A DNA stretch of 64,000 nt from Psychrobacter vallis. GTDB lineage: Bacteria > Pseudomonadota > Gammaproteobacteria > Pseudomonadales > Moraxellaceae. Below are positions 40,822 to 62,483 of this stretch, piece by piece (positions within the stretch are counted from its first letter, which is position 1; each line of letters starts with the position of its first letter). The notes under the pieces are model-generated. The model had not been told where the DNA came from. It searched no databases and saw only the letters and a list, made by a program, of their open reading frames with translations. A program made the translations under genes and the position numbers. Location of the stretch: NCBI RefSeq assembly GCF_904846715.1, contig NZ_CAJHBU010000010.1:1-64000 (forward strand). The letters are read 5' to 3'.

Positions 40822-41528
40822 TGTCGATTAATACTGCATCGGTTAATCCTACTGACCATATTACCAAACCCTTAAGAGTGGTTGTTTTGGTATCAGGTAG
40901 TGGCAGCAATCTGCAAGTGTTAATCGATGCGATGCACGCAGGCGAGCTGCCGATTGAGATAGTCGGTGTCATTAGCAACCGTGATGATGCTTATGCCATC
41001 ACACGTGCCAATGACGCTGCTATCCCTGTAGCCATATTGTCACACGTGGCAAACGGCAAACGTATGGGCATTCAGACCTTTGAGAAGCATGCCAGTCATC
41101 AGCTGAAAGCATGGCAACCAGACCTCATTGTCTTGGCTGGTTTTATGCGGGTATTGAGCGCCGCATTTATCGATAACGCGCCAGCACCAATGATTAATTT
41201 GCATCCCTCTCTGCTACCGGCTTATAAAGGTCTTGATACTCATCAACGTGCTATACAAGCAGGTGAGCGGCATCATGGCTGTAGTACTCATGTGGTTACC
41301 GCTGAGCTTGATGCGGGAACTGTTCTGACCCAAGCCTTGCTGGAAGTCACTCAAAAAGATACAGCAGACGGTCTACAAGCACGCGTGCAAAAGCTTGAGC
41401 ATCAGCTGCTGCCTTGGACCGTTGCATTATTAGCGAAAGGCGTGCTCTCGTTGAATCATGAGCAAACACACAATCCACAAAGTGCTTTTATGCCGACTTT
41501 GCCTTTGAAGTTGTACTTAGACAATTAA
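40821..41528 (+). CDS. purN: Phosphoribosylglycinamide formyltransferase
   Basis: Transfers a formyl group from 10-formyl-tetrahydrofolate to GAR in purine synthesis. It is 235 aa from ATG 40821, which overlaps the purM stop by one base. VVVLVSGSGSNLQVLIDAM is the substrate-binding N-terminal motif (about 20-38). The catalytic Asn-His-Asp set is seen in INLHPSLLPAYKG (near 130) and AELDAG (near 168). About 18 N-terminal residues precede the first strand, more than in E. coli PurN (212 aa). Confidence 0.96.
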   Translation: MSINTASVNPTDHITKPLRVVVLVSGSGSNLQVLIDAMHAGELPIEIVGVISNRDDAYAITRANDAAIPVAILSHVANGKRMGIQTFEKHASHQLKAWQPDLIVLAGFMRVLSAAFIDNAPAPMINLHPSLLPAYKGLDTHQRAIQAGERHHGCSTHVVTAELDAGTVLTQALLEVTQKDTADGLQARVQKLEHQLLPWTVALLAKGVLSLNHEQTHNPQSAFMPTLPLKLYLDN

Positions 41529-41600
41529 GGGCTGTATTTGACAGCAAAAATCGTTGTTAATCACAAAAAATCCTCGTTTCTGAAAAATCATTAACCATAA

Positions 41601-41638
41601 AAAAGCCCCATCACTCACTATTGAATGATGGGGCTTTT
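41601..41638 (+). terminator. Terminator of purMN
   Basis: AAAAGCCCCATCA and TGATGGGGCTTTT form an exact 13-bp stem with a 12-nt loop and flanking A/T runs, about 70 bp after purN. Confidence 0.9.
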
Positions 41639-41687
41639 CGGCATTTATTATAAATAAACGCTTAAAATGTCTTAACAATAAAGCGTC

Positions 41688-41794
41688 TATAGTCGAGGCA
41701 GTTTACAGTGGGTACAAGGCAACCGAGTGCAGATAGTAACGTTGTACAGCAAGCAAGGTTAACACCGTACCCATTTATAAATGCTTTGACTATA
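41688..41794. repeat. 107-bp dispersed hairpin repeat, copy 1
   Basis: One of three copies in the window, each exactly 107 bp. The ends TATAGTCGAGGCA and TGCTTTGACTATA pair over 13 bp with two G-U pairs. Inner arms AGTGGGTAC and GTACCCATT pair over 9 bp. The conserved middle includes ACAGCAAGCAAGGTTAA. It sits between the purN terminator and the end of the convergent dehydrogenase gene, 7 bp past the latter's stop. It is non-coding. Confidence 0.85.
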
Positions 41795-41801
41795 AATACT
41801 A

Positions 41802-43181
41802 TTAGCCATTGTGGACATGTAGACCTTTAATATTCACAAACTCTTTAATACCGAAACCACCATGCTCACGGCCATGACCTGAGTTTTTCACTCCACCGAA
41901 TGGCAGTGCTGGATTTGCAAGACCATAACCATTGATATAGACCATACCGGTATCAAACTCTTCACGCGCTAAGCGAATGGCTTTTTCTTCGTCTTTAGAG
42001 AAGATAGCACCGCCTAGACCATAACGGCTGTCATTAGCAATACGCATCGCATCGTCTTGATCTTTAGCACGGATAAGTGAGGCTACTGGGCCAAATAATT
42101 CGTCGTCATAAGCAGGCTGACCTTTTTCGACATTTTCCAGAATAGTCGCTGGATAGAAGCTGCCTTTGCCTTCTGGTAACTTACCACCAACTGCGATGGT
42201 CGCACCCTTACTAACGCTTTCTTCTACTTGTTCATGCAACTTTTCTTGTAGATCTTTGCGCGCTAACGGGCCAAGATCAGAGCTTTCATCCATTGGATCG
42301 CCAGATTTTTGGCTTTCAAATTTTTCGACAATACGTTTGCGGAAGTCGTCATATAAGCTATCCACAACGATAAAACGCTTCGCTGCGACACAAGTTTCGC
42401 CATTATTGATGAGACGCGCTTGAGTGCAGGTTTCTACTGCTAATTCTAAATCAGCATCTTCTAAAACGATAAACGCATCGTTCGAGCCCAATTCTAGCAC
42501 CACTTTCTTAATGGCTTTTGCTGCTTGCTGACCAACAATGCTACCCGCACCATCACTACCTGTAAGCGTGATACCACGTACTTTATCATGACCAATTAAT
42601 TTTTCTGATTGATCGTGATCGATTAAAATCGTACGGAAAAGATTGTTTGGCAAATCAGATTCATGGAATATTTTTTCAATCAATAAGCCGGAACCAGTCA
42701 CGTTTGCGGCGTGCTTAAGTAAAACGCTGTTACCCGCCATCAAGTTGGCAATGGTATAACGAAACACTTGATACGCTGGAAAATTCCAAGGCTGCATACC
42801 ATAAATAACGCCGATAGGCTGATAGGTAACGATACCTTTCTTCATACCTTCAATGTCACGCTCATCATCTGCTAACGCGGCGATACCTTTCTCTGCCGTG
42901 TAATCACAAATGGATTTGCACAAGTCTATTTCTTGTAGACTTTGGCTATAGAGCTTGCCGCGCTCTTCCGTCATTAGCTTAGACAGCTCTTCTTTATACT
43001 TCATCAACGTCTCACCAATAGAGGTGATGACTTTTGCACGTTCTTCGTGGCTGGTCTTGCGCCATTCTAAAAATGCTTCATGTGAGGCATCAACGATACT
43101 GTTGACCTCATCAGTACTCATATAGTTATATTCTTGGATGTCTTCGCCCGTAGCTGGGTTTACAGTAGTAATATCTGACAT
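41802..43181 (-). CDS. Succinate-semialdehyde dehydrogenase-type ALDH (Sad/YneI-like)
   Basis: NAD(P)-dependent aldehyde dehydrogenase, 459 aa, close in size and style to E. coli Sad/YneI (462 aa), which oxidises succinate semialdehyde to succinate. It lacks the longer N-terminus of other ALDHs. Motifs are GMQPWNFPAYQVFRY near 130, LTGSDGAGS near 205, the glutamate motif VLELGSNDAF near 228, the catalytic cysteine in NNGETCVAAKRF near 262, and PFGGVKNSGHGRE at the end. The substrate is inferred from length class. No gabT is near. The next gene upstream is a LysR regulator in the same orientation. Confidence 0.88.
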   Translation of the reverse strand: MSDITTVNPATGEDIQEYNYMSTDEVNSIVDASHEAFLEWRKTSHEERAKVITSIGETLMKYKEELSKLMTEERGKLYSQSLQEIDLCKSICDYTAEKGIAALADDERDIEGMKKGIVTYQPIGVIYGMQPWNFPAYQVFRYTIANLMAGNSVLLKHAANVTGSGLLIEKIFHESDLPNNLFRTILIDHDQSEKLIGHDKVRGITLTGSDGAGSIVGQQAAKAIKKVVLELGSNDAFIVLEDADLELAVETCTQARLINNGETCVAAKRFIVVDSLYDDFRKRIVEKFESQKSGDPMDESSDLGPLARKDLQEKLHEQVEESVSKGATIAVGGKLPEGKGSFYPATILENVEKGQPAYDDELFGPVASLIRAKDQDDAMRIANDSRYGLGGAIFSKDEEKAIRLAREEFDTGMVYINGYGLANPALPFGGVKNSGHGREHGGFGIKEFVNIKGLHVHNG

Positions 43182-56020: not shown

Positions 56021-56127
56021 TATAGTCGAGGCAGTTTAAAGTGAGTACAAGGCAGCCAAGTGCAGATAGTACCGTTATACAGCAAGCAAGGTTAACACCG
56101 TACTCATTTATAAATGCTTTGACTATA
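56021..56127. repeat. 107-bp dispersed hairpin repeat, copy 2
   Basis: About 90% identical to copy 1 by eye. The outer arms are unchanged. The inner arms read AGTGAGTAC and GTACTCATT, a G-C to A-T change on both sides that keeps the helix. It lies between the BLUF gene and the 3' end of ispD, 95 bp past the ispD stop. Confidence 0.85.
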
Positions 56128-56221: not shown

Positions 56222-56971
56222 TTATGATTGGGCAGCCAGAATCGCTGCTAGCAAGACAGCATCATCAGGATAAGTGAGCTTGATGTTTTGGCGACTGCCA
56301 GTCACTAGCCGAATCGGTAAATCTAAGTATTCAAAAGCGCTGGCTTCATCGGTAATATCAAGTTGATACTCAGAAACATAATGTAATACGGCTTTTAGCT
56401 GACCTAATCGAAATACTTGCGGGGTTTGGGCTTGCCACGTATTAATGCGGTCGATTGTGTGTTTGATATAAGAGTATGAAGTCTGCCTTATATCGTCATT
56501 GGCAACCTCAGATTGAGCATTAGACTGTGTGTAAGACTGTTTTAGAGTATCGGCAACTGGTGTCGCCAAAATCGCCCCATAAGGCTCTACCATAGCGGCT
56601 CTAATGACTTGGTCAATGTCTTGAATGGGTACAGCAGGGCGTGCAGCATCATGGATCAGTACCAAATCTGAATCGTCGGCTCCTGTGTTAGCAATCGACT
56701 CTACCCCTGCCTGTACAGACTGCCAACGCTCAGCACCCCCAATCGCATACTGTATAGGAAGTGCAAAATCTAATGTTTGCACAGTGCTATCATCTGCTGC
56801 AACCACTAATAGGCATTGATCAATATAAGCGCTACAAGCAAGCCGTGCCACGCTATGCTGTAGCAATGTCTGCCCTTGCAGCATGGTATATTGCTTAGCG
56901 ATAGACGAACCAAAACGACTGCCGCGACCAGCAGCGACAATCATGGCATGTATATTAAGTTTGCTATTCAT
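56222..56971 (-). CDS. ispD: 2-C-methyl-D-erythritol 4-phosphate cytidylyltransferase
   Basis: MEP-pathway enzyme of isoprenoid biosynthesis, adding CMP to methylerythritol phosphate. It is 249 aa from ATG 56971. The nucleotide-binding motif is MIVAAGRGSRFGSSIAKQY near residue 9. LVLIHDAARPAVP is near 107, the Lys/Thr motif TPVADTLKQ near 142, and QTPQVFRLGQL near 180. ATG at 56998 would add nine residues. It follows ftsB in the widely conserved eno-ftsB-ispD order. Confidence 0.95.
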   Translation of the reverse strand: MNSKLNIHAMIVAAGRGSRFGSSIAKQYTMLQGQTLLQHSVARLACSAYIDQCLLVVAADDSTVQTLDFALPIQYAIGGAERWQSVQAGVESIANTGADDSDLVLIHDAARPAVPIQDIDQVIRAAMVEPYGAILATPVADTLKQSYTQSNAQSEVANDDIRQTSYSYIKHTIDRINTWQAQTPQVFRLGQLKAVLHYVSEYQLDITDEASAFEYLDLPIRLVTGSRQNIKLTYPDDAVLLAAILAAQS

Positions 56972-57101
56972 AAGGCAGTACTCATGGCTGAAACCCATGA
57001 CGGTGTGGTTGAGAACAAGGACAAGCTAAAATAGAAAACGCATTAAAGATGAATCATCTCTCTATCATAGACAACAGAGAGCAACATAACGTCATAAAAA
57101 A

Positions 57102-61700: not shown

Positions 61701-61807
61701 TATAATCGAGGCATTTTCAAGTGGGTGCAAGGCAACCGAGTGCAAATAGTACTGTTGTACAGCAAGCAAGGTTAAAACTGTACTCATTTATAAATGCTTT
61801 AATTATA
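61701..61807. repeat. 107-bp dispersed hairpin repeat, copy 3
   Basis: Third copy, more diverged. Outer arms TATAATCGAGGCA and TGCTTTAATTATA show a compensated G-C to A-T pair and one mismatch. Inner arms AGTGGGTGC and GTACTCATT pair using three G-U pairs. It lies in the 322-bp gap between copA and copZ. Confidence 0.85.
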
Positions 61808-62228: not shown

Positions 62229-62483
62229 TCAATCATCATAGCGTGGGTTTTGCGGTGCATCGATAGGGAATGGCTGAGTCACATAATCCACCATACTAAT
62301 TGCCGCCGTTAACGCATGAATACTAGTATCTGTATCCTCATAACGTACAGTCGCAATATGACTGGCAGCATCCAGCTCAATAGCTGTCACACCTGAAATG
62401 TTTTGCAGCGCCGTCATTACGCTATCTAACCCTTCCGCATCATTAATATTTTCAATACTTACCTGTGCAATTTTTATCGCCAT
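62229..62483 (-). CDS. HMA-like small protein lacking the metal-binding cysteines
   Basis: 84-aa protein. Its pattern (strand AIKIAQVSIENI, helix GLDSVMTALQNI, strand AIELDAASHIATVRYE, helix SIHALTAAISMV) follows the heavy-metal-associated fold of copZ, but the CxxC loop is replaced by NINDAEGL, and the protein has no cysteine at all. ATG 62483 has AGGAG upstream and lies 19 nt after the kdsA stop, so it is co-transcribed with kdsA. A longer in-frame start overlapping kdsA is unlikely. It may be a structural relic, a regulatory binder or an unrelated protein of similar fold. Confidence 0.75.
   Translation of the reverse strand: MAIKIAQVSIENINDAEGLDSVMTALQNISGVTAIELDAASHIATVRYEDTDTSIHALTAAISMVDYVTQPFPIDAPQNPRYDD

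Follow-up and report, generated by a model that had tools for sequence, protein, structure and literature searches.

The closest described counterparts of the element studied here are the Correia elements (CREE, NEMIS) of Neisseria, which occur in a short form of 104-108 bp and a long form of 153-157 bp (the 155-bp form carrying an IHF insert), and whose inverted repeat of about 26 bp starts TATAGTGGATTAA. In the portions of the literature that were available, these elements are treated as a feature of Neisseria; RNase III cleavage and promoters at their ends have been reported there (PMC10969869, PMC2649163), and a paper of 2009 gives the means of their mobilisation as not determined (PMC2649163). 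The 107-bp repeat described here, from Psychrobacter vallis, is a new branch of this known kind of element. We consider it highly probable that it is a non-autonomous MITE of the IS630 kind (Tc1/mariner-like, DDE), forming a Psychrobacter branch of the Correia/NEMIS elements, and that the fold of its core is under separate selection.

The window (the whole stretch of DNA that was analysed, 64,000 nucleotides of contig NZ_CAJHBU010000010.1) contains three copies, each of 107 bp and all on the + strand, at the places given in the original prediction. Copy 1 occupies 41688..41794 and runs from TATAGTC to GACTATA, copy 2 lies at 56021..56127, and copy 3, the most diverged of the three, at 61701..61807; all belong to what we call subfamily A. 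A 23-base pattern for the ends, with up to 3 mismatches allowed, finds only these three copies in the window, against a mean of 0.00 in 100 shuffles. Copy 1 has outer arms of 13 bp at 41688..41700 and 41782..41794, the left one being the outer part of an IS630-like terminal inverted repeat, and inner arms of 9 bp at 41707..41715 and 41767..41775. Between these lies a conserved core at 41715..41767 (+), in the order CAAGGC, helix, GCAG, hairpin, CAAG, helix, AACAC; the cores of copies 2 and 3 are at 56048..56100 and 61728..61780, also on the + strand. Both sets of arms that had been described for the repeat are seen in the predicted fold of copy 1, for which the minimum free energy is -36.9 and the z-score -5.27, with none of 200 shuffles folding as well. 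The paired differences between copies were also read correctly: the inner arms are GTGGGTAC/GTACCCAT in copy 1 and GTGAGTAC/GTACTCAT in copy 2, and in the outer arm of copy 3 the pair 5/104 has changed from G-C to A-T, a compensated change.

The three copies have the following contexts (gene names being read from translations). Copy 1 lies between the 3' ends of two convergent genes, a purN-like gene on the + strand ending at 41528 and an aldehyde dehydrogenase-like gene on the - strand with its stop at 41802. Copy 2 is downstream of an ispD-like gene (56222-56998, - strand), and copy 3 is between a copper-ATPase-like gene (start 61580, - strand) and a gene ending at 62229. Among the 16 aligned copies from the same genome, 14 are outside mechanically called ORFs of at least 100 aa and 2 overlap one. 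A promoter and terminator scan of 41500-41900 gave one site of each kind, neither of them on copy 1, and no T-run follows copy 1.

The 107-bp repeat is part of a dispersed family. BLAST with copy 1 gave 18 matches in the genome, ranging from near-identical copies down to fragments. Fifteen of these, together with a copy of a third type found by the end-pattern search (L041), make up an alignment of 16 copies of 107-108 bp, from which a 99-bp copy (L016) and two fragments (L017, L018) were left out. The two main subfamilies are A, TATAGTCGAGGCA...TGCTTTGACTATA, which includes the window copies, and B, TATAGTTGATCCA...TGGATTGACTATA. A covariance model (R1), built from copies of this genome only, has at least 25 matches in the P. 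vallis genome, and a search of the genus with it found matches in 54 of 60 genomes, with no more than 65 candidates scored per genome. Across the whole genome the end pattern, at 3 mismatches, gives 146 matches, compared with 50 for the reversed pattern. Rfam at the gathering threshold reported three tRNAs in the whole window and nothing on the elements; in seven loci searched at E up to 5 the elements were without a match, and a search of copy 1 against plasmids gave none. It is worth adding that the genome holds a second MITE family, also with TATAGT ends, which is about 146 bp long and has a different core around CTGTCACGCTTGCGAACAGCCAGCGA; nine loci hold either this family or shorter elements of about 80-90 bp.

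The original prediction knew no name for the family; it is not nameless, R1 matching Correia/NEMIS elements over its full length. A scan of named genomes for a Correia pattern gave at least 80 records, all from Neisseria among the matches listed. Run on 20 of those Neisseria loci, R1 gave 28 matches, each over positions 1-107 and with E-values between 1.1e-10 and 2.1e-5, and Correia ends are present in all 28. A sequence-only model, R2, also matches the Neisseria copies (best E 6.9e-8, five loci). Because R1, derived from the P. vallis genome only, and R2 both match Neisseria copies, we conclude that the 107-bp element is a relative of the Correia elements and not merely alike in build. The Psychrobacter copies, at 107-108 bp in the 16 aligned, have the length of the Correia short form (short forms that we measured in Neisseria were 105-106 bp, with one of 111), both kinds have TATAGT ends, and the order of the Correia core, ACAAGGC..GCAGA..AGTAC hairpin GTAC..GCAAG..AACGCCGTAC, matches that of the Psychrobacter core. 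The two differ in host, which is of a different genus and order, and in their ends after TATAGT, which read TCGAGGCA/TCAAAGCA or TTGATCCA as against TGGATTAA; TATAGT of the Correia inverted repeat is common to both, and the remainder, though diverged, aligns under R1. The arms of the Psychrobacter elements contain G.U pairs, in contrast to those of Correia.

The ends of the element resemble those of IS630 transposons. The MITE ends start with TATAGT, as do the ends of local IS630 elements, and the P. vallis genome has an IS630 of its own, of 920 bp (L104:1153-2072), with an HTH_Tnp_IS630 (PF01710) ORF and an overlapping DDE_3 (PF13358) ORF, whose best full-length match is on a plasmid of Psychrobacter urativorans. 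Of the 60 genus genomes, 45 have IS630 transposase matches, which exceed the family cut-off in 38, and at 21 of 30 fetched transposase loci a TATAGT...ACTATA pair stands 889-920 bp apart, mostly with further similarity of the ends. Eight of nine MITE or Correia ends match IS630 ends better than shuffled tails do (P 0.0005-0.0165, values that are optimistic because the 13 IS ends compared were hand-picked for their likeness). These are the right end of subfamily A, both ends of B, the left end of C and Correia ends, which makes four of five Psychrobacter ends; the left end of subfamily A is no closer to the IS630 ends than shuffled tails are (17/28, P 0.22). In Neisseria elongata (G434), an IS630 of 905 bp (L233:1445-2349) has the ends TATAGTCAATTAAAATAAAAATAGGACAGT and TATAGTAAATTAAAAACGAAATAGTACAAT, which agree with those of Correia elements at 20-22 of 28 positions (P 0.001-0.0165, again optimistic), and on this likeness it is a possible candidate for the mover of the Correia elements. 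Six other Neisseria genomes were searched as well, and none showed an IS630 match with an end pair of this kind.

Copy 1 is absent from the corresponding site in the 18 relatives for which the junction was read, and this absence fits past mobility of the element. At the empty site the junction is TA in 10 of the 18, CA in 7 and TC in 1, counts that concern copy 1 only, were taken without gaps from the match to the right flank, and include several near-identical relatives; matches to the left flank were found for only part of the 18 among the matches listed. In one further genome, G032, the site is occupied, with one match over 1-907 at 92%. Copy number and IS630 matches are uncorrelated over the 60 genomes (Spearman -0.17, P 0.19), and 11 of the 36 genomes with at least 10 copies have no IS630 match, so that many copies may be old, or may have been moved by a transposase that has since been lost. 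The action of an IS630 transposase on both ends would explain the ends, the TA and the dispersal. It would not explain the core, which is absent from the IS630 ends (45 bases of each).

The pairing was analysed in the 16 aligned copies, a set picked without use of structure, over 30 pairs. Standard pairs occupy 92.5% of cells compared with 85.6% after shuffling, and the covariation score is 0.294 as against 0.179 (sd 0.013), with none of 500 shuffles reaching 0.294, a result that is not a probability because the 16 copies are related. When the partner is slid by 1-3 columns, pairing falls to 30-37%. The compensated changes in the arms, on which the original prediction was built, hold up under this analysis. 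G.U occupies 49 cells in the arms and A.C 6, the G.U count being partly inherited, as one G.U pair is common to 13 copies. Given this excess of G.U over A.C, the + strand is predicted to be the better-folding one, and calculated fold energies agree: -36.9 for the + strand of copy 1 and -33.2 for the other strand, and for L010 -37.4 and -23.4. We note that several copies (for example L005:1501-1607 and L010:1501-1607) have a tandem G.A step in the core helix P3, with CGAG facing CGAG, and that the window copies vary here, having CAAG on one or both sides. Tandem G.A steps occur in stable RNA internal loops. It had been proposed that the pattern reflects selection or mobility tied to a folded strand. 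The compensated arms and the G.U bias favour a fold of the + strand, and past mobility fits; however, the ends and the TA fit the double-strand mechanism of IS630 (DDE), so the fold need not be a transposition intermediate.

The core is more widespread than the ends. Of 369 class genomes R1 matched 3, namely P. vallis and two from other families; the elements of these two share the core, but their arms are wholly different and near-perfect. A core model, R3, whose structure was set by hand because RNAalifold gave a poor fold for the mixed alignment A2, matches 43 of 369 class genomes (38 of 272 genera, E 1e-3, copy counts limited to 12 per genome), and within the family 49 of 149 genomes (5 of 16 genera, E 1e-4); it includes L108, L109 and four Neisseria copies, so that matches to these are by construction. 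A bases-only pattern, CAAGGC-N8-GCMG-N17..23-AAG-N7..8-AACGC, was used to avoid a bias towards pairing. It occurs in 39 of the 369 class genomes, where the reversed pattern gives 0. In a phylum sample of 398 genomes it is present in 16, of which 5 lie outside the class (4 of these 5 from one family), and there the reversed pattern gives 4 matches in 3 genomes. The highest number of core-pattern matches among the 369 genomes is in G425, with 122 in a 3 Mb genome. A search of plasmids with an element from one other genome gave one Variovorax match, and a search with an element from a second gave none; the core is present on a plasmid of Variovorax paradoxus (Comamonadaceae).

Pairing in the core was scored on 71 distinct matches representing all 39 genomes, taken by hand from the matches listed (for high-copy genomes the first places among these), with near-duplicates within a genome omitted and poorly paired rows kept, three of which have 4 or fewer of the 8 P3 pairs. 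P3 forms 7.24 of 8 pairs on average, compared with 4.47 when partners are swapped (sd 0.16, maximum 5.14 in 2000), and P4 forms 6.18 of 7, compared with 4.32 (sd 0.12, maximum 4.72); since rows from the same genome are related, the swapped values give no strict probability. At 5 of the 8 positions, P3 shows all four Watson-Crick pairs. G.U outnumbers A.C in the core helices by 86 to 19, with 38 of the 86 at one position of P4. An effect of this size, seen over 36 genera, makes it nearly certain that a structure is conserved. The recurrence of the folded centre in many other proteobacteria, within otherwise unrelated palindromes, suggests that evolution keeps the fold itself.

These results bear on whether a folded strand is needed at all, because compensated changes might come from matching DNA ends alone, if the transposase homogenises the terminal inverted repeats. 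The outer and inner arms do correspond to IS630 terminal repeats, and ends homogenised in this way would look compensated. However, P3 and P4, which are not ends, covary in the 71 matches from 39 genomes, and the preference for G.U over A.C in both arms and core is unexplained by double-stranded ends. We therefore regard this explanation as improbable.

In 13 of 29 loci from other genera of the class, a core copy on the + strand is followed by one on the - strand at a distance of 106-126 bp; where these inverted pairs were read their arms differ, and some spacers are CCCGAAGGG-like. Such pairs resemble REPINs, and a palindromic, folded and dispersed element could be of the REP/REPIN type, mobilised in single-stranded form by a Y1 (TnpA_REP/RAYT) transposase, matches to which occur in 35 of the 60 genus genomes. 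The original prediction pointed to such a transposase in the same genome, but a search with PF01797 gave 0 matches at E 1e-5 in P. vallis, and there is none in G032 either, each of these genomes having at least 25 copies. Moreover, copy number is uncorrelated with Y1 matches (Spearman -0.18, P 0.17), and IS630 accounts better for the ends and TA, which makes a REP-like origin very unlikely. Least likely of all is the duplication, with no transposon involved, of a structured RNA gene or terminator resident in the genome, which would suit the conserved fold and the position of 14 of 16 copies outside called ORFs, but not the transposon-like ends, the empty orthologous site of copy 1 in 18 relatives, or the lack of a T-run after copy 1 and of a terminator-like site on it.

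Returning to the IS630-type MITE that we favour, an IS630 transposase supplied in trans would recognise bipartite ends of about 28 bp, consisting of the outer 13 bp and the inner 9 bp, and would insert the element at TA; mobilisation in this way is what the sequences of the ends lead us to infer. The core of about 53 nt would fold on the + strand into P3 and P4, with the conserved internal loops CAAGGC, GCMG, AA and AACGC between them. Since the core structure is kept across the class in elements with unrelated arms, the folded strand would be selected separately from the ends. What folds would be the + strand as RNA or as a single strand, given that the fold is kept, the helix sequence is free and G.U is preferred, and it is most likely RNA in read-through transcripts. 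Our first choice for its role, by analogy, would be an RNA processing or stability element, because RNase III is reported to cleave the Correia transcripts of Neisseria (PMC10969869). A role for the hairpin in DNA transposition is an alternative.

We also lean, by a modest margin of belief, towards a broader proposal: that the Correia core is one branch of a structured element that is class-wide and probably phylum-wide, with a fold of about 53 nt (CAAGGC-P3-GCMG-P4 hairpin-CAAG-P3'-AACGC) carried between unrelated transposon ends and kept for a function as folded RNA or single strand. Psychrobacter and Neisseria would have it as single copies, whereas in other genera it would often come as inverted pairs. 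The BRE of Bordetella and relatives, a dispersed repeat of about 90 bp that is part of the bprJ sRNA region and is found in Comamonadaceae among others (PMC3110155), may be part of the same family as the core; the two are alike in being dispersed repeats and in occurring in Comamonadaceae, a comparison made by description only. In those parts of the open-licence literature that were accessible, nothing was recognised that describes Correia elements outside Neisseria, or the core, and no printed account turned up of the Neisseria link, the IS630 candidates or the wide fold.

The ERIC of enterobacteria is alike in size, also has a long hairpin, and has a stretch that we take to resemble the core; kinship is not supported, as the score of the core model on the one E. 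coli ERIC locus searched was no more than 2.6 bits (E 8.8). The RUP of pneumococcus is linked to an IS630. Like RUP and other IS630-derived MITEs, to which it is likened by description only, the Psychrobacter element is non-autonomous, would target TA and has ends resembling those of a resident IS630; unlike RUP, it has a conserved structured core. Comparison with the Correia elements now places relatives of these in another bacterial order, brings in TATAGT-ended IS630 elements as candidate movers, including the 905-bp one in Neisseria elongata, and adds a covarying fold common to many genera, without an Rfam family in the searches made, whose function becomes testable in hosts that are harmless.
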